Assembly: GCA_017410525.1 (NCBI GenBank)
Contig: JAFQQQ010000004.1
Location: 1-32,338 of the forward strand
Direction of reading: 5' to 3'
DNA length: 32,338 nucleotides
From: Bacilli bacterium
GTDB taxonomy: Bacteria; Bacillota_I; Bacilli_A; RF39; UBA660
The position numbers were made by a program, and so were the translations under genes. Under the pieces are notes generated by a model that worked only from the letters and a program-made list of their open reading frames with translations, did not search any database and was not told the origin of the DNA. Position 1 is the first letter of the stretch. Each line of letters begins with the position of its first letter. Of this stretch, positions 14,515 through 32,334 are shown one piece after another.

Positions 14515-14940
14515 ATGAAGAAAGTATTAAATGTATGTTTTATTTTATTAATCAGTTTAATTTTTATTGACATCGTTGGCGCTGATACGTATAATAATTA
14601 TTCACCAGAAGTTCCTACTGCTAGTTGTGGGGATAATTTGCTTACAGATATACCACAAATGTTACCTAAAGTTATAAGCATTATCTATACTGTTATTCAA
14701 GTTGCTGTGCCTATAGTACTTATTGTAATGGGATCGTTAGATTTGATGAAAGGTGTTACGGCACAAAAAGAAGATGAAATAAAAAAGGGTCAACAAATGT
14801 TTATAAAAAGATTAATTTCGGGTGTATTAGTATTTGTTGTGTTTATTGTTGTTAAACTTGTAATAAGTTTAGTTGCAGATGGATCATCTGCTCCTATAAT
14901 GCAATGTGCTGATTGTTTTATAAGTAATGATTGCGATTAG
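14515..14940 (+). CDS. VirB2/TrbC-like pilin-type protein, copy 1
   Basis: The protein has 141 residues, starting at ATG 14515 behind GGGGG. A signal peptide (KKVLNVCFILLISLIFIDIVGA) precedes a short Cys-containing segment and two membrane helices (IIYTVIQVAVPIVLIVMG and LISGVLVFVVFIVVKLVISLV). The helices are joined by a basic loop, LDLMKGVTAQKEDEIKKGQQ, followed by MFIKR. The C-terminus ends CADCFISNDCD. The two-helix, loop-inside layout is that of VirB2/TrbC pilins. The loop sequence recurs in four more proteins of the window. The next gene begins within eleven bases. Confidence 0.72.
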   Translation: MKKVLNVCFILLISLIFIDIVGADTYNNYSPEVPTASCGDNLLTDIPQMLPKVISIIYTVIQVAVPIVLIVMGSLDLMKGVTAQKEDEIKKGQQMFIKRLISGVLVFVVFIVVKLVISLVADGSSAPIMQCADCFISNDCD

Positions 14941-14950
14941 AGGTGAAAAT

Positions 14951-15793
14951 ATGCAAAAAAAATTATTAAAAGTTATATTGTTTGTTATAATGTTTTTACC
15001 TATAGTGGGTGTTAATGCTGCTTCTTATGAATTTAGGTGCAATTATAAGAGTTCCAATAAAAATGAAGTATATGAAATTTTGTACAAAACCAATGGTGAC
15101 AACACTACAATGATAGACTGTAAGTATTATGAAATGGATAGTTCAGGTCTTTTTTATGAATTTGAAAAAAGTTGTAGCAACTACCAATTTAAAGCTAATG
15201 GAAATTATTCTAAAAATAGTAATAGTTGTCCAAGCTCCATTAATGTTTCTAAAAAAAATATTACTTGGATTGCAGGTGGAAAAGGTACATATATATATAT
15301 AGAAGGAAGTAAAACAGATTTAAAAAAACTTGCAGCGAGTTCTTGTGAAGATTATAAAAGAGAAAAGACTTGTAATAATGCTGTAGAGGGTTGTAGATGG
15401 GCAGATAAAACTTGTATGACTTTAAGTGAATACGACGATTTAGGAAGAACAATTGATAAAGTTAGTTGTGGCTCTGGAGAGGGTCGAGTAACAGGTATTC
15501 CTTCTAAGATTCCAGAATTAACAAGTCTAGCAATTACTATAATTCAAATAGCTGTTCCTATTATTTTGGTAGTATTAGGTAGTATAGATTTATTTAAAGG
15601 AATAACAGCTGGCAAAGAGGATGAAATAAAAAAGGGTCAACAAATATTTATAAAGAGATTAGTTGTTGGCGCTATAATATTCCTAGTTGTAATTATAGTA
15701 AAATTTTTAATTAGTGTAATTGCTGATACAAATAAAACTAATATTGGAAATTGTATAGATTGTTTTATAAGTAATGATTGTGAGGAGGAGTAA
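14951..15793 (+). CDS. VirB2/TrbC-like protein with extracellular extension, copy 2
   Basis: The protein has 280 residues from ATG 14951 (AGGTGAAAAT upstream). The frame is open to 14927, but that lies inside the previous gene without a binding site. A signal peptide (QKKLLKVILFVIMFLPIVGVNA) is followed by about 150 residues of Cys-rich ectodomain (FRCNYKSSNKN, DCKYYEM, NAVEGCRWADKTCMTL). The conserved two-helix module follows, with LFKGITAGKEDEIKKGQQ between the helices and the ending CIDCFISNDCEEE. The DNA for the ending (15758-15780) matches that of copy 1 (14911-14933) base for base, a sign of recent duplication. A pilin-like core with a surface domain is the best reading. Confidence 0.7.
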   Translation: MQKKLLKVILFVIMFLPIVGVNAASYEFRCNYKSSNKNEVYEILYKTNGDNTTMIDCKYYEMDSSGLFYEFEKSCSNYQFKANGNYSKNSNSCPSSINVSKKNITWIAGGKGTYIYIEGSKTDLKKLAASSCEDYKREKTCNNAVEGCRWADKTCMTLSEYDDLGRTIDKVSCGSGEGRVTGIPSKIPELTSLAITIIQIAVPIILVVLGSIDLFKGITAGKEDEIKKGQQIFIKRLVVGAIIFLVVIIVKFLISVIADTNKTNIGNCIDCFISNDCEEE

Positions 15794-15796
15794 AAA

Positions 15797-16282
15797 ATGA
15801 AAAAGAGACTAATATTATTAGGTATTGTTTTAGGAATAATTGTTCTATGTGTTGAACCTGTTTTAGCAGCTGATATAGCTTCTTGTGAAAACTCAATAAA
15901 AGGAGCTATAATAGACGAAAAAATACCTAATTTGGTAAGCACAATAATAAAAATAATTAAAATAGCTGTACCTGTCTTACTTGTCATAATGGGTATGCTT
16001 GATTTAATGAAGGGGATAACAGCTGGTAAAGAAGATGAGATGAAAAAAGGGCAACACTTGTTTGTAAAAAGATTAATTTCTGGAGCTCTTGTATTCCTTG
16101 TATTTACAATCGTTCAACTTGTTATTAGTTTTGTCGCTAATGAGGATGATAAACCTAACATCGCAACTTGTAGTAGGTGTTTTATAACTGGAGATTGTAC
16201 ATATAAATTTAAAAACGAAACTACAAAGGAATGCCCAGATGGAACTAGAATAAATGAAACTGGGACATCTTGTATAAAATAA
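15797..16282 (+). CDS. VirB2/TrbC-like protein, copy 3
   Basis: The protein has 161 residues, starting at ATG 15797. The binding site GAGGAGG lies across the stop codon of copy 2, so the two are coupled. A signal peptide (KKRLILLGIVLGIIVLCVEPVLA) is followed by the two-helix core (IIKIAVPVLLVIMGMLDLMKG, ITAGKEDEMKKGQH, LISGALVFLVFTIVQLVISFV). The end of the core reads CSRCFITGDC. A 25-residue tail with two more Cys (TKECPDGTR, GTSCIK) is unique to this copy. Same family and role as the two genes before it. Confidence 0.72.
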   Translation: MKKRLILLGIVLGIIVLCVEPVLAADIASCENSIKGAIIDEKIPNLVSTIIKIIKIAVPVLLVIMGMLDLMKGITAGKEDEMKKGQHLFVKRLISGALVFLVFTIVQLVISFVANEDDKPNIATCSRCFITGDCTYKFKNETTKECPDGTRINETGTSCIK

Positions 16283-16292
16283 TGGAGGGTTT

Positions 16293-17405
16293 ATGGTAGA
16301 GGTATTAAAAAAAATAGATAAAAAAATATTAATAATAATTTGCGCTATATTGCTATTACCTATTGTATTAATAATTTTTTTAGCTATTATTCAAGGTTGT
16401 AGTAATTCTAATATTACACATGAAAAATATGAAGAAAAAATGATTGAAGCAGCACAAAAATATTTTGAAGATAATGATAATATGCCTAAAGAAGAATCGG
16501 AGGCAAAGACAGTTGAATTAAGTACTATAGTTAATAAAAAGTATATAAAATCAGCTGAAGAATTAGTTGGTGATGGTTCTTGTAAAGGTAGTGTTACTGT
16601 TAGAAGAAATGGTGTTGTAATTGAAGAAAACGATGGTGGATATTTAAATTATACCGTTAATTTAGAATGTGATACATATCAGACTAATACATTAATAAAT
16701 AATTTAATGAAAGATGTAGTTAGCCAAGGATCTGGGCTATATCAAGATAATAATTACTATGTTTATAAAGGTGATGAAGTAAATAATTATATTACATTTT
16801 ATGGTGTTGACTATAGAATAATAAATATTAATGAAAATAGAATGATTAAACTTTTAAAAGTTGAATCAGAGCTTTTAGATAGGTTTTGGGATAATAAATA
16901 TAATGTTGAAGTAAGTGATTTGTATGGGAAAAATATATATGCCGATAGTGCTATTTTGAAAAATATAATTTTGGATTATAATAATACTAAAATTATAGCT
17001 CCAGAAGCAAAAAAAAGAATAATTTCAACAGATGTATGTATTGATTCAAGAGATATAAATAATGTAGCAATAAGTGACTATGTTTGCTCAAACAAATTAG
17101 AAAATCAAGTAATATCTTTAATAGATGTTTCTGATTTTGCTAAAGCGAGTTTAGATTTAGACTGTACAACAATTTATTCTAGATCTTGTGGCAACTATAA
17201 TTACTTGAAGGAACTTAATTTACGAACTTGGACACCGACTTCGGTTTCTAATAATACTTATCAAGTGTATTATTTAACAAATGGTATTATAAAAATTCAA
17301 GAAGCTAGCAAATATGAAAATTATAACTTAGTTATTCATATAGATGGAAACGAAAAAATTGTTTCAGGTAAGGGAACAAAAACTGAACCTTATGTTGTTA
17401 AGTAG
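16293..17405 (+). CDS. Single-pass exported protein in the pilin cluster
   Basis: The protein has 370 residues, starting at ATG 16293 behind GGAGGG. One strong N-terminal helix (ILIIICAILLLPIVLIIFLAII, about residues 13-34) has no clear cleavage site. A region like the helical start of pilin-type proteins follows (EKMIEAAQKYFEDNDNMPKEE, then TIVNKKYIKSAEEL). A larger ectodomain comes next (NNYITFYGVDYRIININENRMIKLLKVE), with Cys residues and the ending GKGTKTEPYVV. I have no firm family name. The ectodomain resembles repeats found in many surface proteins of AT-rich Bacilli-like gut bacteria. Set among VirB2-like genes, it may be a tip or minor surface component; that is inference. Confidence 0.7.
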   Translation: MVEVLKKIDKKILIIICAILLLPIVLIIFLAIIQGCSNSNITHEKYEEKMIEAAQKYFEDNDNMPKEESEAKTVELSTIVNKKYIKSAEELVGDGSCKGSVTVRRNGVVIEENDGGYLNYTVNLECDTYQTNTLINNLMKDVVSQGSGLYQDNNYYVYKGDEVNNYITFYGVDYRIININENRMIKLLKVESELLDRFWDNKYNVEVSDLYGKNIYADSAILKNIILDYNNTKIIAPEAKKRIISTDVCIDSRDINNVAISDYVCSNKLENQVISLIDVSDFAKASLDLDCTTIYSRSCGNYNYLKELNLRTWTPTSVSNNTYQVYYLTNGIIKIQEASKYENYNLVIHIDGNEKIVSGKGTKTEPYVVK

Positions 17406-17407
17406 GG

Positions 17408-17436
17408 TTGACTTTTAATCATAACAAATGTATAAT
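17408..17436 (+). promoter_or_regulatory. Near-consensus promoter before the signal-less VirB2-like gene
   Basis: TTGACT (17408-17413), a 17-base spacer and a perfect TATAAT (17431-17436), three bases after the stop of the previous gene. The downstream gene is bracketed by this promoter and a terminator. Confidence 0.8.
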
Positions 17437-17463
17437 ATATTTAGTTAGGAGGATTCGAAAAAG

Positions 17464-17853
17464 ATGATGTTTTTAGTGGATAATTTTGAATTGGATGGAC
17501 TTTATAGATGCGGGAATTTAGGTTTTGAATTTTCTGGAACTTTTCCTTATTTGGTTTCGACAGTAATTTTAATAATAAAAATAGTAGTTCCAATTTTATT
17601 AATAATTTTTGGTATGCTAGATCTAGGAAAAGCTGTAGTTGCCTCAAAAGAAGATGAAATAAAAAAGGGACAACAAACTTTTATGAAAAGAGTTATATCA
17701 GCGGTTATAGTTTTCTTTGTAATTCAAATCGTACAAATCTTAGTAAACTTTGTTTCTAGAGACAATAGTGTTTCTAGATGCTTCAATTGTTTTGTAAATG
17801 GTAAAATTAATCCTACAGGATGTATAGATATAAATTTAAATATTAATGAGTAA
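17464..17853 (+). CDS. VirB2/TrbC-like protein without signal peptide, copy 4
   Basis: The protein has 129 residues, starting at ATG 17464 (AGGAGG about twelve bases upstream; ATG 17467 is a possible alternative). Unlike the other copies it has no signal peptide: about 25 polar residues precede the first helix (VSTVILIIKIVVPILLIIFGML). The core loop reads LGKAVVASKEDEIKKGQQ, then FMKR and the second helix. The ending has CFNCFVNGK plus a distal Cys. It has its own promoter and terminator, so its level is set separately from the copies upstream. It could be the main subunit or a membrane partner of VirB6 just downstream; that is inference. Confidence 0.72.
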   Translation: MMFLVDNFELDGLYRCGNLGFEFSGTFPYLVSTVILIIKIVVPILLIIFGMLDLGKAVVASKEDEIKKGQQTFMKRVISAVIVFFVIQIVQILVNFVSRDNSVSRCFNCFVNGKINPTGCIDINLNINE

Positions 17854-17861
17854 TAAAAAAG

Positions 17862-17895
17862 CTATAATTAATCATTGATTAATTATAGTTTTTTT
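17862..17895 (+). terminator. Intrinsic terminator after VirB2-like copy 4
   Basis: CTATAATTAATC (17862-17873), loop ATT and GATTAATTATAG (17877-17888) make a perfect 12-bp stem followed by seven T. A run of A before the 5' arm could pair with the T run. It may allow partial read-through into the VirB6-like gene 55 bases further on. Confidence 0.85.
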
Positions 17896-17950
17896 GTTAT
17901 AATTATGTTATAAGTATAAGTGTTATTTAAAAAAATTAGGAGGAATGCAG

Positions 17951-20605
17951 ATGTACAGTTTATCAATAAATATATGGTTTCAAAAATTAATGAAACAATT
18001 TTTCTTTGGAATAGATAGTGTAATTTATAATTTTATATCATCTATTTATGATTTGCTTATTTCAATAGCAAGAACATCTGTTCTTTCTCAAGCTGATATA
18101 TTAGAAATGGCGGATAAAATATATAAGTTACTTGCAGTATTTATGATTTTTAAAGTGACTTTTTCTTTGATCACTTATGTGGTAAATCCAGATGATTTTT
18201 CTGATAAGAATAAGGGAATATCTAAATTAATCACCAACATAATAACAAGTCTAGGATTATTAATTTTAACTCCTTATATATTTAATATGGCATATAGATT
18301 ACAAGCTATAATATTAGAAGATAATACATTAGCAACACTAATATTTGAAACTGAAAAAGAACAAGCAGGAGGAACTGCTGGTGATTTTCTAAATAGCGCA
18401 GGAGATGAAATTGCTTTTATGACTATGAGGCCGTTTTTTACTCCTAATACATCAATTAAAGAACTCCAAGGATGCATTGATTTGACAGATATAAATGGAA
18501 AATTTAATCCTATTTGCTCTGGGATAGATAATGAAACTAAAGAAAAATGTAATTCAGCTGGAGAATGTGGGGTTGAAGTTGAAGAAAACTTTGATGCATC
18601 AAATACCATGGTAGCTATAATAGATGAAAAATTAGTGCAAAATTATGTAGTAGGTATTAATAATAAAAATTTAGGATTAATGTTTAGGCAAGATCTTGCT
18701 GTAACAGTAACTGATGATGATGAATTTGTAATGGAATATAAATATGTTTTTAGTACAGTTGTTGGAGTAGTAGTTGTATTACTGTTGATAACATATTGTA
18801 TGGACGTTGCACTCCGTAGTATAAAATTATCATTTTTACAATTAATTGCGCCAATACCAATTTTGTCATATATAGATCCAAAAAGTGGAAAAGATGGATT
18901 ATTTAAAAAATGGTATCAATTATGCTTTAAAACTTATTTAAGTTTGTTTATACGCTTATTAGCATTATATTTTGCTGTATATATAATAGATAAGGTTGCT
19001 GATATGCAATTAGTAGATATTATTGATGGTTCACAACAAACAAATTTTTTAATTTCTATTTTTATAATTATAGGGGCATTAATGTTTGCTAAGGATTTAC
19101 CTAAAATACTTGAAGGCTTAGGTATTAAACTTGATGGTGGAGGTAAGTTCTTCCTAAACCCTTTGAAGAAATTTACTGAACAAGCTGCGGGTGGAAAAAG
19201 AATAATGGGAGCAGCAGGAGCACTAACTGCGGGTGCTGCGGATAGAGCTGCTAGAATTGCTACTGCTCCAGGAGCAAAAGGTAAATTAAAAGCTTTAATG
19301 GGAACTGGACCAGGCTTAATTGGCTCTGCTGCTAGAGGTTTTAGATCAAATGCAGGATTTAAAGGTGGTCTTGATAAACAAGCTCAAGTAAATAGACGTT
19401 TAAGAGAAGGTAGAATTAATGGATTATCGCCTATGAGTTCTTATCTAGATTATGCTGGTTCTATATTTGGATTAGACGATGCTACATTAGAAAAAGAAAG
19501 TACTATACTTAGAAAAAATGAAGATGCAATACGAAATGCAGAAACTCAATTAGAAAACAAAAATCGACAAAATACATTAAAAATAGATGACGAGAAAAAA
19601 CGACAAACCACTAGAAAAAACACTAAGGCAAAATTTGACAACACAAAAAAACAGGGTGAGAGACTTTTAAAAGCTTCTGAAGATTTTACAGTAAAAAAAG
19701 GCGATTTTGACATGGGAAAAGAACATGATGCAAAAATGGTAGCGCTTAATAAAACAATTGAAGCGGCTAGAGCTCAAGGTTTAGATAAAGTTGTTCTAGG
19801 CAAAAATGAAGATGGAAGTCTTATATATCAATCTTTGGATGAATATTATGTAAGAGAAAAAAGAAGACTTAATGCAAGAAACTATAAATCAAATAGAAAT
19901 TCTGATGAAGCGAATCTTCAACATTTAACTGATCACAACGGAGAAGTTTTAACTTCGACATTTATGGTTGGTGATCAATTATTTGAAGCAGGTACTAAAA
20001 TAGATGGTGATGTAATAGCTCGAGCAAAAGCTGCTCAAGGTTTATACATAAAAGATTCTCAAAAGGCAGTAACAAATGAAATGTATAGGATGTCTGCAAA
20101 TGCTGATTCTTTAACTGGAGAAGAAAAAACTTTCTATGAATCGAATAAAACAGATTTTAATTCATTTGCTAATATAAATGAAGAATTCCAAAACGCTATA
20201 GGCGCCGCAAATGATTCGGTTGTTGCTTACAATTCTGAATATGCTAATTCAATTGAGGGTATAAATTCAGACATGCCAAAATTATCTAATGGTCAAGATG
20301 ATATTTATAAGTTGATAAAAGACATTAATGGCAATATGGAATCTGGATCAGCTATTACTGAAATTAATAAAGAATTAGCTAAATCAGAGGCTGAAATTGA
20401 AGAACTTGAAAGAGAAAACGAAAATAACAGAAGAAATACATTTGTTACATATATTGATGAACATGGTAATAAAACTGAGGAACCAATTTCCCTTGAAGAT
20501 GCTAAGAGTAGAAATAAAACTAGAAATGAAAATAATAAACGTAGGCTTGAACAACATCAACAACGTAGAAGTTTGATGCAAAACATGTCGGGTGGAAAAA
20601 AATAA
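17951..20605 (+). CDS. VirB6/TrbL-like polytopic T4SS channel protein
   Basis: The protein has 884 residues from ATG 17951; ATG 17945 lies too close to AGGAGG (17937-17942) to be used well. VirB6/TrbL proteins form the inner-membrane channel of type IV secretion systems. About five to six helices lie in the first 400 residues (YKLLAVFMIFKVTFSLITYVV, IITSLGLLILTPYIF, VVGVVVVLLLITYC, the LQLIAPIPILSYIDP segment, SLFIRLLALYFAVYII and FLISIFIIIGALMFA). An exported loop with CIDLTDINGKFNPICSG falls between helices two and three. A Gly/Ala-rich stretch (about 410-475) then leads to about 400 charged, coiled-coil-like residues, an unusually long cytoplasmic tail. A possible extended -10 (TGTTATAAG) lies near 17904-17912. 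Confidence 0.82.
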   Translation: MYSLSINIWFQKLMKQFFFGIDSVIYNFISSIYDLLISIARTSVLSQADILEMADKIYKLLAVFMIFKVTFSLITYVVNPDDFSDKNKGISKLITNIITSLGLLILTPYIFNMAYRLQAIILEDNTLATLIFETEKEQAGGTAGDFLNSAGDEIAFMTMRPFFTPNTSIKELQGCIDLTDINGKFNPICSGIDNETKEKCNSAGECGVEVEENFDASNTMVAIIDEKLVQNYVVGINNKNLGLMFRQDLAVTVTDDDEFVMEYKYVFSTVVGVVVVLLLITYCMDVALRSIKLSFLQLIAPIPILSYIDPKSGKDGLFKKWYQLCFKTYLSLFIRLLALYFAVYIIDKVADMQLVDIIDGSQQTNFLISIFIIIGALMFAKDLPKILEGLGIKLDGGGKFFLNPLKKFTEQAAGGKRIMGAAGALTAGAADRAARIATAPGAKGKLKALMGTGPGLIGSAARGFRSNAGFKGGLDKQAQVNRRLREGRINGLSPMSSYLDYAGSIFGLDDATLEKESTILRKNEDAIRNAETQLENKNRQNTLKIDDEKKRQTTRKNTKAKFDNTKKQGERLLKASEDFTVKKGDFDMGKEHDAKMVALNKTIEAARAQGLDKVVLGKNEDGSLIYQSLDEYYVREKRRLNARNYKSNRNSDEANLQHLTDHNGEVLTSTFMVGDQLFEAGTKIDGDVIARAKAAQGLYIKDSQKAVTNEMYRMSANADSLTGEEKTFYESNKTDFNSFANINEEFQNAIGAANDSVVAYNSEYANSIEGINSDMPKLSNGQDDIYKLIKDINGNMESGSAITEINKELAKSEAEIEELERENENNRRNTFVTYIDEHGNKTEEPISLEDAKSRNKTRNENNKRRLEQHQQRRSLMQNMSGGKK

Positions 20606-20625: not shown

Positions 20626-20946
20626 ATGGAAAATTCGTATTTAATACCAGCAAACTCGAAGAAGAGTATGCTTATATTTGGAATGTTTAATACAGTTGAT
20701 TTAATAATATTTAGCTGTGGGATAGGAATATCATTTTTGTTAATGATGTTCCTTCCTGTTAATGAATTTTGGGTTGCTGTTGTAACTATTTCACCAGGAC
20801 TTATATGTGGTTTTTTGGTATTACCTATACCAAATTATCACAATGTAAGAACTGTAATAAAAAATGCTTGGAATTTTTATACAACAAGACAAAGATATGT
20901 ATGGAAGGGTTGGTGTTTTGATAATGGCGAAAGAAACAAAAAGTAA
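20626..20946 (+). CDS. PrgI/VirB3-like membrane protein
   Basis: The protein has 106 residues, starting at ATG 20626 behind AAGGGTG. Two adjacent helices (VDLIIFSCGIGISFLLMMFL and FWVAVVTISPGLICGFLVL) sit after a short polar N-terminus. The C-terminal part (NYHNVRTVIKNAWNFYTTRQRYVWKGW) matches the end pattern of PrgI/VirB3 proteins of Gram-positive conjugation systems. These work with VirB4 at the membrane. The last 23 bases overlap the start of the VirB4 N-terminal gene, tying their translation together. Assignment rests on size, topology, C-terminal pattern and place. Confidence 0.78.
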   Translation: MENSYLIPANSKKSMLIFGMFNTVDLIIFSCGIGISFLLMMFLPVNEFWVAVVTISPGLICGFLVLPIPNYHNVRTVIKNAWNFYTTRQRYVWKGWCFDNGERNKK

Positions 20947-21463
20947 ATATACAGATGTTCCTGTAAAAAATATTACTAATGGTGTTATTGTGCTTGATAA
21001 TAATCAAAAAGTTACTGGTGTTAAAATAATGCCAAGAAATATTTTTATACTTGATCAAAGTATGCAAGATGCAATTATTATGAATTTAAAAAATGTTTAT
21101 AATGCAATTGATTATGAATTTTGGATTGTGGTTGCTGATAGACCGGTTGATATAAATGTATATTTATCTCAATTGCAATTACTATATAATCAAATAAATG
21201 ACACAAAGAAAAGAAAACTTATACTTGAAGATTTAAATAAAGCTAATATGTTTATGAATAATAATGTTGTAGATACTGAGTATTTCTTGTTGTTTAAGGA
21301 AAAAGATAATGATTTAATTCAAAAGAGAATACGAAATTTAATTAATAATTTTGCTAGTGCGGGGCTTACTGCTTTTCAAACTAATAATGATGATTTAAGA
21401 ATGATTTTAGATAATTTCTTAAATGGTGGACAAACTACTACTTTTGGGACGGTGTTAGCGTAA
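20924..21463 (+). CDS. VirB4 N-terminal domain protein
   Basis: The protein has 179 residues from ATG 20924 (AKETKSKYTDVPVKNITNGVI). Longer starts lie inside the VirB3-like gene without a binding site. The content matches the N-terminal, non-ATPase region of VirB4/PrgJ: a small beta domain (GVIVLDNNQKVTGVKIMPRNIF) followed by helices (NVYNAIDYEFWIVV, LQLLYNQINDTKK). It ends at TAA 21461-21463. The ATPase part starts one base later in another frame. In most systems both parts form one protein of about 800 residues, so this is either a natural gene split or a recent break. The junction falls between domains and a new ATG is present, so I favour two working proteins. Confidence 0.78.
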   Translation: MAKETKSKYTDVPVKNITNGVIVLDNNQKVTGVKIMPRNIFILDQSMQDAIIMNLKNVYNAIDYEFWIVVADRPVDINVYLSQLQLLYNQINDTKKRKLILEDLNKANMFMNNNVVDTEYFLLFKEKDNDLIQKRIRNLINNFASAGLTAFQTNNDDLRMILDNFLNGGQTTTFGTVLA

Positions 21464-21464: not shown

Positions 21465-23249
21465 ATGGATATAAGAAGTCAAATTGCTCCAAAGGGATTG
21501 GAGTTTAAACCTAGCGAATTTATTATTAGTGATAAACATGCTTGTATTTTAACTGTTATTTCATATCCTAAATTTATTTATCCTGGATATCTAAGTAGTT
21601 TAACAAGTATGTCAGGAATTAAAGTTGTTATTAAACATATACCGCTACCTTTTAGTAGTATGAGCAAAATGTTAAATAAAGAACTTGCTGATTTAAAACA
21701 AAGATATCAAGATGAAAATGATAAAACGATACAAGAAAGAATTCGTCAAGATTATGAGTCTTTAGAAATGTTTATAAGTGAACTTGCAGCTAGTCAATCT
21801 AAAATTTATGATTTTCAAATGCATGTTATGATTACTGCTAATACTAAAGATGAACTTGATGTTAAAAAAATTCAGGTAAAAAATTATTTAGAAGCAATGG
21901 AAATGAGAGCTGTACCGCTTCGTTTTGAACAAGATAAGGTACTTAAATCTATATTACCAATATATGGTAAACAAGATATTGAAGATAGAATAGGAACACC
22001 TATTCCTGCTCCTACAATGGCGGCTATGTATCCTTTTATATTTGATAGTATTAAAGATCCAGGGTTATCAACCTTGCTTGGTATTGATTTTTCTGGTGGA
22101 GTTATATTATTTAACCAATTCTTATATCAAATAAAAAAAGAACACAATCGAAATAATGCAAATATGATAATTTTAGGTACTTCTGGTAGTGGTAAATCTA
22201 CTGCGGCTAAATTGTTATTGAGGAGTAATATAAGAAATAACAATCAAATAGTTGTTATAGATCCAGAAGGCGAATTAGAAGATATGGCATATACCTTTAA
22301 TGGTGATTTTATTAGTTTAGGTAAGGGTGGATCATTTGGTATGATAAATCCTCTTGAAGTAATAATAGATGCTGATGAAGAAGAATTGAAACAAGGGTTG
22401 GGTTATACTATATTAACTCGTACTTTACAAACTATAAAAGCGTTCTTAAAATACTATGATCCTAGTATTGAAGAGGATGTTGTTAATATGTTTAGTGAGG
22501 TTGTACAAGAAACATATAAACGTTTTGGTATTGATTTTGAATCTGATTTTAGAAAATTTAAATCAGAAGATTATCCTACATTTAAAGACGTATATGCAAC
22601 AATAAAAGGTAGAATTTTGTCTATGCCTGAAAAGACTCAGGAAAAAGATGTACTTGAAAAACTTGAAATAAAAATAAGACCAATTGTAAAAGAACTTAGA
22701 TATTATTTTGATGGACATACAACTATAAAACCTAGAAGTAATTTTATAGTATTTAATATTAAAGAATTAATGAATGCTGATAAAAATATTAGAAATGCTT
22801 TATTCTTTAATATATTAAAATATGCTTGGGGATTAACTTTAAATAGCGCAATAAATACTGTTATGATGGTTGATGAAGCCCATGTTCTTTTAAGCGGTGG
22901 AAATACTTTAGGGGCAGATTTCTTGGCTCAAATCCAAAGACGTGCTAGAAAGTATAATACTGGAACAATAATAATAACACAACAACCAACTGATTTTAGT
23001 GATCCTAGTGTTATAACACAAGGTAAAGCAATTTTTGATAATGCTTCTTACTATTTGGTAATGGGATTAAAAAAACAAGCGGTCGATGATTTATCTAAAT
23101 TAATAGATTTAAATGATAATGAAAAAGAAAGCATCAAACAATATCAACAAGGAGAGGCATTGTTTGTTTGCGGAAGCAGAAGAATGCGTATTAACGTAAT
23201 TGTTTCAGATGAAGAATTAGAATCTTTTGGTAGTGGCGGAGGATTATAA
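21465..23249 (+). CDS. virB4: VirB4-family T4SS ATPase (C-terminal part)
   Basis: The protein has 594 residues, starting at ATG 21465, one base after the N-terminal gene. Residues 1-230 hold the rest of the VirB4 N-terminal region (DIRSQIAPKGLEFKPSEF, DKHACILTVISYPKFIYPGY). The ATPase domain has Walker A GTSGSGKS (238-245), IVVIDPEGE (262-270), Walker B MMVDEAH (467-473), the QIQRRARKYN helix and the ITQQPTDF sensor (505-511). All catalytic residues are present. VirB4 powers assembly and substrate movement in type IV secretion. The stop TAA is followed by AGGAGG for the wall-enzyme gene. It is the most certain T4SS component here, along with VirD4. Confidence 0.93.
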   Translation: MDIRSQIAPKGLEFKPSEFIISDKHACILTVISYPKFIYPGYLSSLTSMSGIKVVIKHIPLPFSSMSKMLNKELADLKQRYQDENDKTIQERIRQDYESLEMFISELAASQSKIYDFQMHVMITANTKDELDVKKIQVKNYLEAMEMRAVPLRFEQDKVLKSILPIYGKQDIEDRIGTPIPAPTMAAMYPFIFDSIKDPGLSTLLGIDFSGGVILFNQFLYQIKKEHNRNNANMIILGTSGSGKSTAAKLLLRSNIRNNNQIVVIDPEGELEDMAYTFNGDFISLGKGGSFGMINPLEVIIDADEEELKQGLGYTILTRTLQTIKAFLKYYDPSIEEDVVNMFSEVVQETYKRFGIDFESDFRKFKSEDYPTFKDVYATIKGRILSMPEKTQEKDVLEKLEIKIRPIVKELRYYFDGHTTIKPRSNFIVFNIKELMNADKNIRNALFFNILKYAWGLTLNSAINTVMMVDEAHVLLSGGNTLGADFLAQIQRRARKYNTGTIIITQQPTDFSDPSVITQGKAIFDNASYYLVMGLKKQAVDDLSKLIDLNDNEKESIKQYQQGEALFVCGSRRMRINVIVSDEELESFGSGGGL

Positions 23250-23270: not shown

Positions 23271-25703
23271 ATGTATGAAGAAAATCAATTGACTGAAGCA
23301 GATATTTTAAAACAACGAAAAATTGAAAGTAATGCTAATAATGTAAGAGCTTTAGCTGACATGGCTTCTAAAACCTCCAATCCATACGCCAAAGCGGCTG
23401 GTATAGCAGTTAAGGGTGCTGATAAACTAACGGGAGGTAAAAGCTCAGAATCATTAGGTAAGGCATTGGATAGAGCAAATAAATTTACTCCTGGTGGAAT
23501 ATTACCACAAAATCGTATGAACAAAAGCGGGACTAGTGGTAGGATTGCTAGTGCTTTAAACAAAAAAAATAATTTAAGTACCACAAATGCTGTGAAGGCA
23601 GGTGCAAAAAGCAATGCTGTTGCACAAGGGAAAAAGAATAACTTTTTCTCAAAAAGAGAAGTAGAAGAACAAACTTCGGATGGCGGTGGTTTTAATTTTA
23701 AAGTTACTGCAAATGTTATAAAAATTGGGTTAATTTCTTTTGCGCCTGTTATGTTGATTCTTGTTTTTATGAATTTGATGGTTGCTGGGTCACAGACTTA
23801 TTTGAAAGTTATCGGGTTAGACCGAGCTGATAAAGTTGCTGATGCTGAAGTAGAAGAGTCCATTAGAGAAAATGGAGCTGAAGGGTTAGATGATGAAATA
23901 ACAGATGATGATGGATTAGCTTATATTCCAGCATCAATCAACAATCAAGAAGATATATTTATAAATAATAATATATCTATGCATAAATTAAATAAATATA
24001 ATTTTATTTCTAAAGTTCAAAAAACAGAATATTCTGAGGCAGATTTATTGGAATTAGAAGATTATTATTCAGTTGAAGCATATAGTAATAGCAATTACAA
24101 TATGGATACTGTTTATAAATTCTTTTTCAAATTATATTACATACAAAAACACTATAAAGAATATTACAACATAGATTTAGATATGCCTTTGATAATTTCG
24201 GTTTTATCCATAGAGTCTGAAGACATAAGCAATGTTTTTAAATCAAACATAGAAGGATATAAAATAACTCAAAAAAAAGATAATCCACTTTTTGATTATT
24301 ATCATGATTGGTCAAATTATGTATTATTTAAAAATAGTAGTGCTTATGATATTGAAATTTTAGCTCAACATATGGTATCTGTCAGAACAAATATTTCTGA
24401 AGAACCATGTAAAAATGCTATTAAAGATGGTAAATGTTATGAATTGGTAAGTGAACAACAATATAAAGAATTTTTGAAAGAATTCCTAGAAAAAAAATAT
24501 TTTATAGGAAATGTTTCTATTTCTAATAATAATAGTAATAATAATACTTGTTCCACAACGACACCATTTGTAAAATATAATTTAACTGATGATCAGGTGC
24601 TTCAACTTGCAAGTCTTGCAATAAAAGAGCAAGGAACTGTTAAAGGTGCAGCAGCAGAAGCTTCTTTGATGGCTAATTTATTTGAAATTAAAGGTAGTAA
24701 ATATGGAACTGGAGCAGATGGTTTGTATAATTATGTTAGAAATTCTGGTTGGTTTGCTAGTTCAAAAAAACATATGGATGCTCGTGGAGCAAGTCCAGAA
24801 GTAGTTGCTGCAGTAAGGTCTGTTTTAGTAGATGGAAAAAGAACTTTACCGGGATATATTGATGAACATGATTGGATAAATGATATAAGCACGGCAACAA
24901 CAAATGGTAAAATCATTTCAAAAAATGATAGAGCTTCATATATAAAAAATAATACAATACTTAAAAATGTGTATGGAGCAACTTATACGTTTTATTCGTT
25001 TCCAGATACAAAAAGTGATCCTTTTGGATATACGAGCGAAGAAAGAAGAAAAGAAATTGGTGAATTTTATTATGATTATGACACTGGTAATGCAGTAAAT
25101 TGCACTAAATCAAACGATCCTAATTACGCAGAGGGTGTTAGTTTTATTGATGGAGGATTTGGATCAAATATTTATTATTACAATCAAAATGATTATCAGA
25201 ATTATTATTTTTCAAAAGATCCATACAATTTAGCTGTCCATAAAACAGATTATTGTTCTTTAGGTAAGGGAAAATGTTATCAGTCAATTAGATCTTCTGG
25301 TTGTGCTCCAACTTCTTTATCTATTGCAATTTCAACTCTGTTAAATGAAGCACACGACCCGGTTGAAGTTACTGCTAAATTTTGTAGTCATGATGGATGT
25401 AAAAGATCTGGTGGAAACTCAGCAGCGTTTGCACCAACACTTGCTGAATACGGTTTAAAAGTAGGTCAAAAAACTAAAGATGCCCAAAAGGTTTCGGAAG
25501 CTTTATCTAGTGGAAATTCAATAGTGATTGTATCAGTAGGTCCAGGTGACTTTACTGGCAGTGGACATTACATGGCATTGACAGGTGTAAACAGTAAAGG
25601 TGAAGTCTTTGTAGCAGATCCTAATAATAAGAAAAAAACAAAATGGTGGTCATTTAGTAGAATAATTGAGCAACGTAAGTGGTTTTGGATTGTATCTAGA
25701 TAG
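23271..25703 (+). CDS. Membrane-anchored multidomain wall enzyme with C39-type peptidase
   Basis: The protein has 810 residues, starting at ATG 23271 behind AGGAGG. Residues 1-145 are polar and Ala/Lys/Asn-rich, probably cytoplasmic. One helix follows (about 149-172). Outside lie an SLT-like segment (MPLIISVLSIESED, candidate Glu 315) and a region like SleB-type hydrolases (LTDDQVLQLASLAIKEQG, 438-455). The C-terminal C39-like papain-fold domain has Cys 678 in SGCAPTS, His 766 in SGHYMALTG and Asp 783 in VADPNN. This matches the VirB1/PrgK-type wall-remodelling role in Gram-positive T4SS, which locally opens peptidoglycan. The C39-like triad is clear; the two middle domains are by resemblance only. 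Confidence 0.8.
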   Translation: MYEENQLTEADILKQRKIESNANNVRALADMASKTSNPYAKAAGIAVKGADKLTGGKSSESLGKALDRANKFTPGGILPQNRMNKSGTSGRIASALNKKNNLSTTNAVKAGAKSNAVAQGKKNNFFSKREVEEQTSDGGGFNFKVTANVIKIGLISFAPVMLILVFMNLMVAGSQTYLKVIGLDRADKVADAEVEESIRENGAEGLDDEITDDDGLAYIPASINNQEDIFINNNISMHKLNKYNFISKVQKTEYSEADLLELEDYYSVEAYSNSNYNMDTVYKFFFKLYYIQKHYKEYYNIDLDMPLIISVLSIESEDISNVFKSNIEGYKITQKKDNPLFDYYHDWSNYVLFKNSSAYDIEILAQHMVSVRTNISEEPCKNAIKDGKCYELVSEQQYKEFLKEFLEKKYFIGNVSISNNNSNNNTCSTTTPFVKYNLTDDQVLQLASLAIKEQGTVKGAAAEASLMANLFEIKGSKYGTGADGLYNYVRNSGWFASSKKHMDARGASPEVVAAVRSVLVDGKRTLPGYIDEHDWINDISTATTNGKIISKNDRASYIKNNTILKNVYGATYTFYSFPDTKSDPFGYTSEERRKEIGEFYYDYDTGNAVNCTKSNDPNYAEGVSFIDGGFGSNIYYYNQNDYQNYYFSKDPYNLAVHKTDYCSLGKGKCYQSIRSSGCAPTSLSIAISTLLNEAHDPVEVTAKFCSHDGCKRSGGNSAAFAPTLAEYGLKVGQKTKDAQKVSEALSSGNSIVIVSVGPGDFTGSGHYMALTGVNSKGEVFVADPNNKKKTKWWSFSRIIEQRKWFWIVSR

Positions 25704-26412: not shown

Positions 26413-27843
26413 ATGTTAAAAAAATATTTTTCGTTTTTTGTTATTTTAATAACATTATTTTACTATGATCAAAAAGTTGTGCGTGCTTATGATTATATAG
26501 ATCCTAATAATAAATCTAGTGTACAGGAAATGATTACTCAAATTTATGATGCTAAAGAACAATATGAGGATTTGGTTGGAAATAAAAATAAGCAGGATGA
26601 AATAATTCTGGCATCTAATAATCTTTTTTGGTGGCCAATAGGTAGTACAGAAACTGAAGAAATAAATGGTTTATTATATGCAAAAGGTGAGCCTGCTTCA
26701 ATTAAAGTAACCTCGAATTTTGGTAATAAAGAAAGCTTTAGAACTTCAAAACATGGTGGTATTGATATAGGTAATGCAGGAAATGGCCCTGGGGTTTTAA
26801 ATATAATTGCTGTTAAAGCAGGTGAAGTTATTTATCCGGTTAAGGACTCGCAAACAACTTATCCTGATAATGGATATTATGGAAATCCAGATGGTGGTGG
26901 ATTTGGAAATTATGTAAAAATAAAACATAGTGATGGTACTTATACAGTATATGCACATTTAGCTCAAAATAGTATAACTGTTAGAGCAGGTGATGTTGTA
27001 GATCAAGGTCAAGTTATTGGGAAGATGGGTCATAGTGGATCTTCAACAGCAACACATTTACACTTTGAAGTTAGAATAGGTTCTGATTCATCGGCTAGTA
27101 GAGCATATCCTCTAGATTATGTTGATCCTAATAATCCAAGACCAATGTCTTATGGTAGTGGAAATAGTTTTTCACTTACTACTACAATACTATCAAAAGA
27201 AGAGTTTGTAGGTAGAATGAAAGATTATTATAAAAGAACAAATAAAAAAGGTTTTTATAACAATTTCGTTTTAAATGCAGAAGAAATTTATGATACTTCT
27301 TTAGCTAATAATGTAAATCCGGAATTAGTTGTTGTGACTGCTGGTACGGAAGAAAATTGGTCTTTGAGTGCTGCATGTCAATATACAAATAATTATTGGG
27401 GGATTGGTATAACTAATGGCAAAGGTTGTAATTCAGGAGGTAAATATTCTTCTTTATCTGAAGGAATTGCTGCATATGCTAAGGTTTTAAATTCTTATAA
27501 TGAATATGGAAAGTACTCAGAAGCAATAAAAAATAGATATAATGAAAGAGCTTCTGCTAATTGTGACCCAAGTGGTTATGGATTACCAGGAACTTTAGAA
27601 GGTATGCAATCAATGTATTCTCATATAGGGGAATATAGATATAATCCTGGAGGTTCAGGGTTAGGTGGTTGTTATTATTTGAATATAATATATGGCAAAT
27701 CTTACTGTTCCACTGTAGCAACTTGTGCGGGATCTAAAAACTGTTCAAAAGAATCACAAACTACAATTTGCGAACAGAATGATTATACTGCTTGGCAAAT
27801 AAAAAAGAAAGTTCAGTTGAGATATGATATCTTTGGTTTATAG
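26413..27843 (+). CDS. Secreted M23 peptidase with glucosaminidase-like domain
   Basis: The protein has 476 residues, starting at ATG 26413 behind GAGGTGA. A signal peptide (LKKYFSFFVILITLFYYDQKVVRA) is followed by an M23 LytM-type zinc endopeptidase domain (about residues 95-240). Its ligands are His 114 and Asp 118 (HGGID), His 182 (YAHL) and His 215/217 (HLHFE). A second lysozyme-fold domain (about 260-430) follows (NPELVVVTAGTEENW, catalytic Glu likely 313 or 314, then NNYWGIG), like glucosaminidase or muramidase families. The tail has four to six Cys. Peptidase plus glycosidase in one protein fits local peptidoglycan opening during assembly of an envelope-spanning machine. All M23 ligands are present, so it should be active. 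Confidence 0.9.
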   Translation: MLKKYFSFFVILITLFYYDQKVVRAYDYIDPNNKSSVQEMITQIYDAKEQYEDLVGNKNKQDEIILASNNLFWWPIGSTETEEINGLLYAKGEPASIKVTSNFGNKESFRTSKHGGIDIGNAGNGPGVLNIIAVKAGEVIYPVKDSQTTYPDNGYYGNPDGGGFGNYVKIKHSDGTYTVYAHLAQNSITVRAGDVVDQGQVIGKMGHSGSSTATHLHFEVRIGSDSSASRAYPLDYVDPNNPRPMSYGSGNSFSLTTTILSKEEFVGRMKDYYKRTNKKGFYNNFVLNAEEIYDTSLANNVNPELVVVTAGTEENWSLSAACQYTNNYWGIGITNGKGCNSGGKYSSLSEGIAAYAKVLNSYNEYGKYSEAIKNRYNERASANCDPSGYGLPGTLEGMQSMYSHIGEYRYNPGGSGLGGCYYLNIIYGKSYCSTVATCAGSKNCSKESQTTICEQNDYTAWQIKKKVQLRYDIFGL

Positions 27844-27851
27844 GTGATAAA

Positions 27852-28361: not shown

Positions 28362-28369
28362 GTGATAAT

Positions 28370-28864: not shown

Positions 28865-28872
28865 GTGATAAA

Positions 28873-30945
28873 ATGAGAATGAAATTTAGAGCAGAGGCAA
28901 AGGATGTAATTATTTTTATAATATTTGCAGTTTTATGGCTTTTTGTTGTTGCTTTTGCTGTAGCAAATGTCACTGCATTTTTAAATGGAGAAACGTTTAC
29001 CCTTAATTTATTTTTAGGATTTAATCCTTCAAATATAGCAGCTACAATTATTTTCTTTTTTGCTGGTATTATTGCGGCTTTTGCTGGAGTAAAATCTGTA
29101 TTCTTTGAAAAAGAAGATGCTAGCGGTATTGGTTTTTCAATAGGTCAAAAAAAAGAAAAAAATTATGCTAGATGGGCCAAAGATAAAGAGATTGAAAATG
29201 GATTAGATGTTAAAGCTGTTGACCCTTTAGCTCCTAAAGCAGATGCTGCTGGAATACCTTTAAAGATGACACAAAAAAAAGTTTGGGTAGATAATGGTGG
29301 TTATCACAATTTAGTTATAGGTTCTACAGGAGCAGGTAAAACTCAGACTACAGTTTTACCTATGGTAAATTTACTTGCTAAACATGATGAATCTATGATT
29401 ATAACAGACCCTAAAGGTGAAATATATGAAAATACATCGAATTATTTAAAAAGTCTAGGTTATAATATAGTTCTTTTAAACTTTCGTGACCCACAACAAG
29501 GTAATGCTTGGAATCCTATGTATTTACCATATTCTTTATATAAAAACGGTAATATAGATAAATCAGTAGAGTTGCTTGAAGACTTAGCAGCCAATATATT
29601 AAAAGATCCTAGTGCAAAAGGGCAAGATCCTTTTTGGGAAAATACTTCAGCAGATTATTTTGCCGGATTAGCGTGTGGTTTGTTTGAAGATGCTAAAGAA
29701 GAAGAAATAAATTTAAATAGTATAAATTTAATGACAACAGTAGGTGAAGAAAAATTAGCTAATACAACATACGTTAAAGATTATTTTAGTTATAAAGATC
29801 CAGCAAGTACTGCTTATACTAAAGCTTCATCAACATTGATGGCACCTAGTGAAACAAAAGGAAGTATTTTATCGGTATTTAAACAAAGAGTTCAGTTGTT
29901 TGCTTCTCGTGCTAATTTATCGGAAATGTTAGCTAATAATGACTTTGACATGCGTGATATAGGTAGAAAAAAGACAGCTGTATTTATAGTAATACAAGAT
30001 GAAAAAACTACATATCATACTTTGGTAACAATATTCTTAAAACAATGTTATGAAACATTAATATCTGTTGCGCAAGAATCAGGTGGAAAATTACCGCATA
30101 GAACAAACTTTATATTAGACGAGTTTGCTAACATGCCTCCATTAAAGGATGTTACTACAATGGTTACAGCAGCTCGTTCAAGAAATATAAGATTTACATT
30201 TATTATTCAAAACTTTGCTCAACTTTATGAAGTATATGGAAAAGAAAATGGAGAAACTATTAAGGGTAACTGTGGTAATATAGTTTATTTGATAAGTACA
30301 GAGTTATCTGCACTCGAGGAGATAAGTAAAATGTGTGGTGAAGCTAAGTCTAAAGAAAAAGAAAAAACCGCTTCAACCCCACTTGTGACAGTAAGTGATT
30401 TACAAAGACTTAGTCAATGGGAAACAATTATTTTGAGACTTAGAACAATGCCTTTTAAGACTAAGTTAACTCCTAATTTTAAAATGAATTGGGGTCATAA
30501 TTTCCCTAAAGCAGGATATCCTGAACGACAAAAAAATCTTGTTCAAACATTTGATTTAAAAGCATTTGTAAATAAAAAAAGGGAAGAGAAAATAAATAAT
30601 ATGTTAAATGGTGATTCCACTCCAAATGGTGGGAATATACCGTCAAATCCATTTGGCGGAGGCGTTCCATTTAATCCGTTTATGCCACCAAGGGAGTCCA
30701 ATGAATCTAGTGGTGGAGGATTTAATGTAGATGATTTAGTTAAGAGAATAGATGCTAAAATAGCGGAACTTGAGGAAGAAGAAAGACAAGAGAAAGCTAA
30801 ATTAGAACAAGAAAATAAAGTTAAATTAGAATCATCTCAAGCAGCAACACCTATTATAAATGCTGAAGTTATTTCTGAAGAATCTAAACCTAAGAATGAA
30901 ATTACTGATGATCAGTTCTTTGATGATTTCTTCTTTGATGAATAA
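28873..30945 (+). CDS. virD4: VirD4/TraG-type coupling ATPase
   Basis: VirD4/TraG proteins select substrates and feed them to the T4SS channel. The 690 residues start at ATG 28873 (TAGGTGATAAAATG junction). Two N-terminal helices (about 11-33 and 55-76) are followed by the TraG/VirD4 domain: VIGSTGAGKTQT (Walker A 150-157), DPKGE (179-183), LNFRDPQQGNAWNP, Walker B NFILDEF (412-418), then ANMPPLKD and the FIIQNFAQL sensor (444-451). All key residues are intact. A C-terminal tail is Pro/Gly/Asn-rich and then strongly acidic and charged (about 600-690), ending DDQFFDDFFFDE. Such tails may bind substrate or partner proteins. No relaxase is nearby. Confidence 0.93.
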   Translation: MRMKFRAEAKDVIIFIIFAVLWLFVVAFAVANVTAFLNGETFTLNLFLGFNPSNIAATIIFFFAGIIAAFAGVKSVFFEKEDASGIGFSIGQKKEKNYARWAKDKEIENGLDVKAVDPLAPKADAAGIPLKMTQKKVWVDNGGYHNLVIGSTGAGKTQTTVLPMVNLLAKHDESMIITDPKGEIYENTSNYLKSLGYNIVLLNFRDPQQGNAWNPMYLPYSLYKNGNIDKSVELLEDLAANILKDPSAKGQDPFWENTSADYFAGLACGLFEDAKEEEINLNSINLMTTVGEEKLANTTYVKDYFSYKDPASTAYTKASSTLMAPSETKGSILSVFKQRVQLFASRANLSEMLANNDFDMRDIGRKKTAVFIVIQDEKTTYHTLVTIFLKQCYETLISVAQESGGKLPHRTNFILDEFANMPPLKDVTTMVTAARSRNIRFTFIIQNFAQLYEVYGKENGETIKGNCGNIVYLISTELSALEEISKMCGEAKSKEKEKTASTPLVTVSDLQRLSQWETIILRLRTMPFKTKLTPNFKMNWGHNFPKAGYPERQKNLVQTFDLKAFVNKKREEKINNMLNGDSTPNGGNIPSNPFGGGVPFNPFMPPRESNESSGGGFNVDDLVKRIDAKIAELEEEERQEKAKLEQENKVKLESSQAATPIINAEVISEESKPKNEITDDQFFDDFFFDE

Positions 30946-30963
30946 ACTATTTAACTTGATAAA

Positions 30964-31002
30964 AAATAACCACTCTCATATACTGTATTAGGGTGGTTAT
31001 TT
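30964..31002 (+). promoter_or_regulatory. Hairpin covering the ribosome binding site of the rhodanese gene
   Basis: AAATAACCACTC (30964-30975) pairs with GGGTGGTTATTT (30991-31002) over 12 bp, with one G-T pair and a 15-base loop. The 3' arm holds the GGGTGG ribosome binding site and ends one base before ATG 31003. It has no T-run after it, so it is more a translation block (or a worn terminator) than a working terminator. Confidence 0.55.
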
Positions 31003-31290
31003 ATGTTTGAAAGCATTTCTACAACTGATCTAAAACAATTAAATAATCCTAATTTAATTGATATAAGAAGTATAGAAAAATATAATAATAAACATATTAT
31101 GAATGCAGTTAATATCCCTTTAGAGAGGTTATTAATAAAACCGGAAAAATATTTAAGTAAATTAGAAAAATACTATATATATTGCCAAAAAGGTATACAA
31201 AGTAGGAAACTTTGTCAAATATTAATAAATAGTGGATATAATGTAGTAAATGTATCTGGAGGATATGAATCATGGATTTTAAATGAATAA
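31003..31290 (+). CDS. Single-domain rhodanese-like sulfurtransferase
   Basis: The protein has 95 residues, starting at ATG 31003. It has the small GlpE/PspE-type rhodanese layout: NLIDIRSIEKYNNKHIMNAVNIPL (an HI.GA.NIP-type segment with Asn for Gly), the active loop CQKGIQSRKLC with the catalytic Cys at 61, and the end YNVVNVSGGYESWI. The RSxxEY and SGGYxxW marks are typical. Rhodaneses move sulfane sulfur from thiosulfate or persulfides. There is no signal peptide, so it is cytoplasmic. It seems unrelated to secretion by function, yet it sits between virD4 and another VirB2-like gene. Its start codon is next to a hairpin that hides the binding site. Confidence 0.88.
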   Translation: MFESISTTDLKQLNNPNLIDIRSIEKYNNKHIMNAVNIPLERLLIKPEKYLSKLEKYYIYCQKGIQSRKLCQILINSGYNVVNVSGGYESWILNE

Positions 31291-31299
31291 GAAATTTCT

Positions 31300-31328
31300 T
31301 TTTCATTTTTTGTAATATGTGTTATAAT
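31300..31328 (+). promoter_or_regulatory. Extended -10 promoter before the last VirB2-like gene
   Basis: TTTTCA (31300-31305), a 17-base spacer and a perfect TATAAT (31323-31328), preceded by TGTGT. It is the same extended form as in front of the pilin gene at 12270. Confidence 0.65.
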
Positions 31329-31344
31329 TATGGTAGGTGATCAA

Positions 31345-32334
31345 ATGAAACAAAATATAAAATATATAATTTTTTTATTCATTTTATTTTTAATTAATAT
31401 ATTACAAATAAAAGGTTATACGTGTAGTTATGACGCAAAATTCAATGATAGTGTAGAAAATAGTGAATTTGAAGTTGATTTAGATAATAAAAAAATAGAA
31501 ACGACAACTATTCATTTGATTTTAGATTCGTATATTGAGAATCAGTATACTGATAGTAAACTGATTGAGTTAATGCAAAGTGGGTGTCCAGACTACACGT
31601 ATGTTTGCAAACATAACACTTCTTATAGTAAAATAGTTATAGATGGTGTGAAAACTAGAGATGCTTATAGTTTTATAATAAATTCTGATTTATATAATAG
31701 TTTTTCCCAAAAAATATATCCTGAAAAAGAGGGTTATGTTGTATATACAACGGCAGTACTCCCTTCCGATTGTGTTGTGGCGCCTGCAAACGAGGAAAAA
31801 TCAACTGGGAAAATAATAAAAGATCTCTTCAAATGTTCTTATTTTGATAAAAAAAAAGAACAATTAAACTTATTATATTGCAATTTAACTGATGAAGATT
31901 GTTCTTCAAGTCAAATTTCGTTGTATAACAAAAAATTAGACGAGATTTCATCTTGGTGTAATACTGTATTGAAATATGCGGATTACGTTAATCCCTGCGC
32001 CAAAAGGTGTCTTAATTTGGATTTAGAAATAAAAACAAATGGAAGCCCTAATATGCAGCCTATATGCGGTTTCTCAGATAAGTTAATACAATGGATAGCT
32101 AATATAGTAAAATGGTTAAAATATATAGTACCAGTAATAGTAATAGTATTTGGAATATTAGATTTTATAAAAGCTATAGCATCAGAAAAAGATGATAAAA
32201 TGAAAAAAGCACAAGGACGTTTTACAAAAAGATTAATAGCAGCAGCCTTGATATTTATAATACCATTTATAATAGAATTTATATTAGTAAAAATGGGATT
32301 TGCTGCTAACGCATGCGGAATTATAGATTTATAA
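31345..32334 (+). CDS. VirB2/TrbC-like protein with large extracellular domain, copy 5
   Basis: The protein has 329 residues from ATG 31345 (TAGGTGATCAAATG). The earlier ATG 31330 has no binding site and would overlap the SD. A signal peptide (KQNIKYIIFLFILFLINILQI) is followed by about 220 residues of Cys-rich ectodomain (TCSYDAKFND, SGCPDYTYVCKH, LLYCNLTDEDCSSS, NPCAKRCLNL). The family core follows (WLKYIVPVIVIVFGILDF, IKAIASEKDDKMKKAQGRF, TKRLIAAALIFIIPFIIEFILV). The core loop is the most diverged of the copies (KDDKMKKAQ against KEDEIKKGQ), and the CxxCF ending is replaced by NACGIIDL. The gene is complete, with TAA four bases before the end of the window. It is likely a surface-exposed minor subunit. 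Confidence 0.72.
   Translation: MKQNIKYIIFLFILFLINILQIKGYTCSYDAKFNDSVENSEFEVDLDNKKIETTTIHLILDSYIENQYTDSKLIELMQSGCPDYTYVCKHNTSYSKIVIDGVKTRDAYSFIINSDLYNSFSQKIYPEKEGYVVYTTAVLPSDCVVAPANEEKSTGKIIKDLFKCSYFDKKKEQLNLLYCNLTDEDCSSSQISLYNKKLDEISSWCNTVLKYADYVNPCAKRCLNLDLEIKTNGSPNMQPICGFSDKLIQWIANIVKWLKYIVPVIVIVFGILDFIKAIASEKDDKMKKAQGRFTKRLIAAALIFIIPFIIEFILVKMGFAANACGIIDL

Follow-up and report, generated by a model that had tools for sequence, protein, structure and literature searches.

Subunits of the VirB2 type are absent from the type IV secretion systems (T4SSs) of Gram-positive bacteria, with the exception of Patescibacteria, according to a late-2025 review (PMC12857230). Members of that phylum possess an essential VirB2-like array within a relaxase-less T4SS; the system is chromosomal, its arrays comprise 2–11 divergent pilins, and it occurs together with type IV pili in reduced genomes (PMC12102498, PMC12857230). 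The array of S. epibionticum has been reviewed, as has the recruitment of VirB2 by VirB6 in Gram-negative systems (PMC12857230). The present analysis concerns a stretch of 32,338 nucleotides, hereafter the window, that represents one entire contig (JAFQQQ010000004.1) of a Bacilli genome of the order RF39 (GCA_017410525.1). The window carries a T4SS locus with five genes, designated g1–g5 in gene order, whose products share a two-helix pilin core and divide between a small and a headed class:

14515..14940, plus strand: g1, signal peptide, short linker, hairpin core at residues 46–122, CADCF tail
14951..15793, plus strand: g2, signal peptide, Cys-rich exported head of ~157 residues, hairpin core, CIDCF tail
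15797..16282, plus strand: g3, signal peptide, short linker, hairpin core at residues 39–115, CSRCF and an extended tail
17464..17853, plus strand: g4, hairpin protein without head or signal peptide, adjoining VirB6; the conserved small subunit
31345..32334, plus strand: g5, headed class, signal peptide, head of ~218 residues, hairpin core at residues 243–319

A preliminary description of the window had recognized these five genes as a family with a common two-helix core, a basic loop and a KR pair, and the open reading frames, which allow alternative starts for g2 at 14927 and for g5 at 31330, agree with it, as do shuffling and protein comparisons. Core-only local alignments among g1–g5 reach z = 10–20 against hydropathy-preserving shuffles, and all-against-all BLASTP of the whole proteins returns E values of 1e-10 to 1e-42; the likeness therefore goes well beyond shared hydrophobicity, and on these alignments the five can be regarded as true homologues. 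The loop reads KEDE(I/M)KKGQ(Q/H) in g1–g4 and deviates in g5 (KDDKMKKAQ), and the KR pair follows it in all five proteins (FIKR in g1 and g2, FVKR in g3, FMKR in g4, FTKR in g5). The remaining architecture is as first described: the CxxCF tail motif is found in g1–g4 and missing from g5, whose tail holds a single Cys, and the parts outside the core range from none to about 150 (g2) and about 220 (g5) residues, g4 being the one without a signal peptide. A sixth member lies 7.5 kb beyond g5 on another contig of the same genome (C1:7647-8504, equal to L012:2648-3505); among the orphan copies fetched, its nearest core is that of L205, from a second genome of the same genus, which stands between apparently the same neighbour genes, so that the sixth member appears to be a stable orphan.

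To relate these members to one another, 186 cores were gathered, from 80 named loci as well as from the window's own genome, and a tree was built from 185 cores; because its alignment columns are few, only deep, well-supported splits were used. One such split (support 100/99, branch length 1.66) sets g1–g4, 121 small members and a few headed ones against g5 and nearly all other headed members. In all 58 loci that contain both CpaE, of the adjoining Tad pilus operon, and VirB6, a small member is present; in 57 of these 58 complete loci a member of the g4 type, with at most 30 residues ahead of the core and hence too short for a signal peptide, lies between CpaE and VirB6. A headed member occurs in 40 of the 58, and the other 18 may carry one outside the fetched stretch. 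These patterns indicate two old classes, namely a small, headless, signal-less pilin beside VirB6 (g4) and a headed class (g5), with g1–g3 representing a later, clade-specific expansion of the small class. The proposal of the preliminary description that different heads are carried on one membrane core is borne out insofar as the heads differ on a common core, but the five genes are not equivalent: g5 belongs to the old headed class, the headless g4 represents the conserved subunit and g1–g3 are later. The signal-less form seen in g4 is the one retained family-wide, not an exception among the five.

The family assignment begins with g5, which matches T4SS_pilin (PF18895) at 30.7 bits against a curated cut-off of 26.6; relatives at L195 (39.1 bits) and L199 (33.9 bits) also exceed it, and matches in g3 (20.0 bits) and g4 fall under it. 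Individually under the cut-off, g1–g4 are connected to the family through homology to g5. PF18895 is the commonest Pfam match in relatives, with hits in 23 of the 39 headed proteins and in 32 of the 67 small ones, but with a narrow lead over spurious membrane families for the small proteins. The small and headed classes align profile to profile with 99.6% probability (E 6e-24), and complete members score at least 38 bits against the core profile, the best of 3,478 reversed decoys reaching 13.9 bits. As reversed cores weakly match DUF973 in Pfam, hairpins easily score near E 1e-3, and weak matches such as 7tm_1, DUF621 and MamI were disregarded. The cores are encoded with T4SS genes and can be assigned to this family rather than to holins. 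Chance likeness of hydrophobic hairpins is excluded by the pattern-preserving shuffles and the reversed decoys, and a holin or phage origin was rejected, a PHROGs scan having given no holin match. The label VirB2/TrbC-like in the preliminary description holds for the T4SS pilin type in the sense of PF18895 and fails for TrbC/VirB2 itself (PF04956), to which g1–g5 have no match at E up to 1; a distant common origin of PF18895-type cores and PF04956 may remain.

Heads diverge far faster than cores. For instance, g5 and its nearest relative, L085, are 80% identical in the core and 25% in the head, and g2 shares 67–76% of its core and 22–38% of its head with five close relatives, in which head lengths are 13–199 residues; random head pairs are ~23% identical. 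The rate is uneven, and in certain other pairs head and core are conserved to the same degree. Two adjacent headed genes with identical heads and cores (L101:4386-5591 and 5756-6994) are either a very recent duplication or an assembly effect. Cys makes up 4.3% of g2 and 3.6% of g5, compared with 0.3–0.6% of VirB4 and VirD4, and all 185 members have a Cys shortly before helix 1 and another after helix 2. By the positive-inside rule, the basic loop would be cytoplasmic and both hairpin ends would lie outside, where a disulfide between the bracketing Cys pair, C16 and C106 in g4, could tie the two ends together. In some VirB2/TrbC pilins, the ends are joined by cyclisation.

Passengers are also found behind the core. 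Among orphan long frames from other genera, which were selected for length, 17 have at least 150 residues after the core, and most of these begin just 10–36 residues ahead of it. The tail domains above cut-off are M23, NlpC/P60, phage lysozyme, Amidase_3, D-Ala-D-Ala carboxypeptidase (S11) and C39; Big_2 Ig-like domains are common, and a YkuD L,D-transpeptidase match stays slightly short of the cut-off. At L199, a single chain exceeds the cut-offs of both PF18895 and Amidase_3, and four tandem genes in G057 are 75–84% identical over their N-terminal 187 residues and have different tails. Since heads are N-terminal and enzymes C-terminal, the same hairpin takes passengers at either end. At L184:2068-7127 (G004:C9), an exported DNA/RNA non-specific endonuclease lies beside two enzyme-tailed pilin-core genes, each of which is followed by one of two paralogous genes of ~250 residues.

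A profile survey of family size and context, proposed as a check in the preliminary description, ties the cores to the T4SS locus in nearly all relatives; neither a holin match nor a lack of T4SS linkage, the outcomes named there as adverse, was encountered. Among 146 genomes of the order, 126 (~86%) carry VirB4 of this locus type, at 64–93% identity to the query (the query itself excluded) and nearly always in single copy; one second copy is 42% identical, and further homologues at 32% identity lie elsewhere and probably belong to other elements. Of 145 genomes sampled from 144 genera, 131 have pilin cores, typically in 2–8 and in up to 16 copies. In genomes at least 92% complete, the family is found in 42 of 43, and a short and a long frame together in at least 29 of those 43. 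A phylum-wide sample places the cores essentially in the host's taxonomic family only (10 of the 11 family genomes listed), with a single weak, interrupted match outside it. The relatives that carry names are genomes from gut metagenomes, filed under Bacilli, Erysipelotrichaceae or Mycoplasmatota; among them are Candidatus Faecisoma and Coprosoma, assigned by their authors to the GTDB order RF39 (PMC8035907).

The 3' end of the window is identical over 136 nucleotides to positions 1–136 of contig C1 of the same genome; the locus therefore runs on into C1, where rnr and further housekeeping genes lie downstream of g5. On the minus strand, the window begins with scpB and scpA, followed by exported proteins. 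The plus strand then encodes DUF5411, CpaB-like, TadA, TadB, TadC, Flp-like, two TadE-like and CpaE-like proteins; g1, g2, g3, a 370-residue exported protein, g4, VirB6-like and PrgI-like; and VirB4 (in two open reading frames), a C39 protein, an M23 and glucosaminidase-like protein, VirD4, a rhodanese and g5. The features other than g1–g5 are:

8092..14506, plus strand: Tad pilus operon, with TadA by PF00437, DUF5411 by PF17424 and synteny in relatives; the other names come from position, size and membrane pattern
16293..17405, plus strand: exported or anchored protein of 370 residues within the array, retained in many loci, with no Pfam family above its own cut-off
17945..20605, plus strand: VirB6-like membrane protein, weak match to NF045848 (conjugal transfer protein; E 2.6e-7), same position in all loci
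20626..20946, plus strand: PrgI/VirB3-like protein, PF12666 at 18.5 bits, under the cut-off of 27
20921..21463, plus strand: N-terminal piece of a split VirB4, NF045975 at E 1.4e-12
21465..23249, plus strand: ATPase piece of the split VirB4, NF045975 at E 9.5e-104, AAA_10
23271..25703, plus strand: membrane protein with a C39-like peptidase domain (PF13529), of putative VirB1-like role
26413..27843, plus strand: exported M23 peptidase (PF01551 above cut-off) with a glucosaminidase-like domain (PF01832 slightly below)
28873..30945, plus strand: VirD4 coupling protein, PF02534 at E 1.8e-56

VirB4, VirD4, PrgI/VirB3, VirB6 and a wall hydrolase thus stand within one locus, as in Gram-positive (MPF-FATA type) T4SSs; VirB4, VirD4 and the hydrolases are strong by profile, and PrgI and VirB6 are weak by profile and backed by position. 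No relaxase, which a conjugative element would have, was found within the window. The locus is a chromosomal, relaxase-less, Gram-positive-type T4SS directly downstream of a Tad pilus operon, and it is vertically kept, with scpA/scpB on one side and rnr on the other in the window genome and with presence across the order. The division of VirB4 into an N-terminal and an ATPase frame is retained in the relatives' loci examined. In most loci examined, a small rhodanese gene (31003-31290 in the window) follows VirD4, and it may be part of the adjacent housekeeping genes rather than of the T4SS. In the clade with Candidatus Faecisoma (L122, L127, L131, L136), a membrane protein of 343–352 residues that is not a pilin core lies directly upstream of VirB6; its N-terminal part is repetitive and possibly beta-rich. 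Near the start of the window, an exported Cys-rich protein of 607 residues (3874-5697) has a diverged, broken-up relative immediately upstream (2804-3769, 50% identical), and a direct repeat of 362 bp, 91% identical, spans 3441-3802 and 5339-5699.

The reading favoured here, in which confidence is about evenly balanced, takes the PF18895 hairpin as a shared chassis for headless conduit or pilus subunits and for headed tip, adhesin or enzyme variants. Headless g4 would be the core subunit, brought in by VirB6 in the same way as VirB2 of Gram-negative systems, and would probably polymerise into a conduit or short pilus; AlphaFold2 models its single chain as a confident hairpin (predicted local distance difference test, pLDDT, 82; helices 26–59 and 63–97). 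The small subunits g1–g3 would be later, clade-specific additions, some of which, such as g2, gained heads. The headed class (g5) would carry a Cys-rich N-terminal ectodomain on the same hairpin, probably docking on the same VirB6 platform, and could act as tip, cap or adhesin, so that a single chain would do the work of both VirB2 and VirB5; AlphaFold2 models the g5 head poorly, with low confidence, and a fold search gave generic matches that speak neither for nor against a VirB5 fold. Enzyme-tailed copies, including orphan copies in other genera, might bring wall cutting to the same place, and the Tad pilus could give first contact. The system would most likely contact neighbouring cells and move molecules across the contact, rather than conjugate DNA. 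A thin wall has been predicted for RF39 (PMC10868615), and de novo synthesis of nucleic acids is reportedly missing from it (PMC13155120), which makes uptake from neighbours a plausible, if conjectural, benefit. The fuller picture of a modular surface organelle, in which one hairpin would serve headless shafts, fast-evolving headed tips and peptidoglycan-enzyme subunits that together grip a neighbour, breach its wall and exchange molecules with it or import them, in convergence with epibiotic Patescibacteria, is speculative and, taken as a whole, rather unlikely.

Several observations weigh against the favoured reading. The small members in general, g1–g4 included, remain individually below the PF18895 cut-off, and near E 1e-3 they also score against other membrane families. 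The g4 and g5 models resemble only generic helical hairpins or bundles among solved structures (Z < 8), in a comparison that listed no solved VirB2 pilin and from which no conclusion is drawn, and a sequence profile search of solved structures gave no match. VKOR, Thioredoxin_4 and DsbD were not found as an oxidase for the proposed disulfide (the DsbA and DsbB families were not searched). Genomes with cores and without this VirB4 exist, and vice versa, and many members with a head or tail are encoded well away from the T4SS locus; since some of these orphans carry wall enzymes, not all members need be subunits of one machine. The orphans suit the main rival, in which the hairpin, though of pilin descent, has lost polymerisation and serves purely as a membrane anchor, the array displaying adhesins and wall enzymes on the outward face of the membrane; hairpin-fused wall enzymes need no more than an anchor. 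This possibility, which is real though doubtful, is weakened by the most conserved member being a headless copy that displays nothing and stands beside VirB6 in nearly every locus; moreover, display would require just one signal-anchor helix, whereas here specific residues are retained in the loop and in both helices.

An array whose multiple pilins and fast-changing heads mainly evade host immunity or phages would fit near-orthologous cores with unlike heads and tandem copies of near-identical core with different passengers, and precedent has been proposed for the VirB2 copies of Bartonella and Anaplasma (PMC12102498); as the division into headed and headless classes is ancient and fixed and wall-enzyme passengers are left unexplained, antigenic variation is improbable here. 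Recombination cassettes and silent copies, for which no dedicated search was made, were not encountered. An ordinary conjugation system with its relaxase elsewhere in the genome is less probable still. Its VirB4 does resemble the ATPase family of mycoplasma integrative and conjugative elements (ICEs), a VirD4 coupling protein is in the locus, and PF03432 matches two relaxases in the genome (other relaxase families were not searched genome-wide); both, however, are on other contigs, C4 and C10, near other small VirB2-like genes, the C4 element has its own VirD4-type gene, and the present locus, set between scpA/scpB and rnr in the window genome, is vertically kept and found across the order. 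The regions C4:1-6400 and C10:135000-143700 represent two further conjugative-type elements of the same 1.04 Mb genome, each with a relaxase and small VirB2-like genes. It would be most surprising if the cores formed an unrelated small hairpin family, be it holin, channel or chance likeness: many membrane families give weak matches to small members taken singly, but g5 and several relatives surpass the PF18895 cut-off, PHROGs yields no holin, decoys fall far under members and T4SS synteny is strict.

In this order of uncultured gut Bacilli, VirB2-type pilins are the rule, the machine being kept by ~86% of the genomes sampled. The passages on RF39 consulted make no mention of a T4SS, a search joining RF39 and type IV secretion gave nothing relevant, and the literature searched holds no description of the headed class or of a pilin core joined to wall enzymes. 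How a monoderm T4SS might reach across cell walls, and how these genome-reduced gut bacteria interact with their neighbours, can be framed as a concrete, testable hypothesis on the basis of the headless/headed split and the wall-enzyme fusions.

Compared by description, the closest counterpart is found in Patescibacteria, which share the chromosomal, relaxase-less, Gram-positive-type T4SS, the row of divergent PF18895-type pilins, reduced genomes and type IV pilus genes; they belong to another phylum, and the headed class, enzyme-tailed copies and adjoined Tad operon are undescribed there. Mycoplasma ICEs have the named VirB4 family that is nearest by profile search (NF045975) and VirB6- and VirB3-like parts, but they are mobile elements with no pilin array described (PMC12857230), whereas the present locus is non-mobile and accompanied by wall hydrolases and a Tad operon. 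The Trw system of Bartonella likewise has several sequence-variable pilin copies in one T4SS; unlike the present locus, it lacks VirD4, and here the heads vary more than the hairpin and no host-cell role is known. With Gram-negative VirB2/VirB5, the locus shares a hairpin of two helices joined by a basic loop, located next to VirB6, and a proposed division into shaft and tip, but it differs in having no PF04956 match, a tip-like domain fused to the core, no outer-membrane parts and a conserved subunit without a signal peptide.

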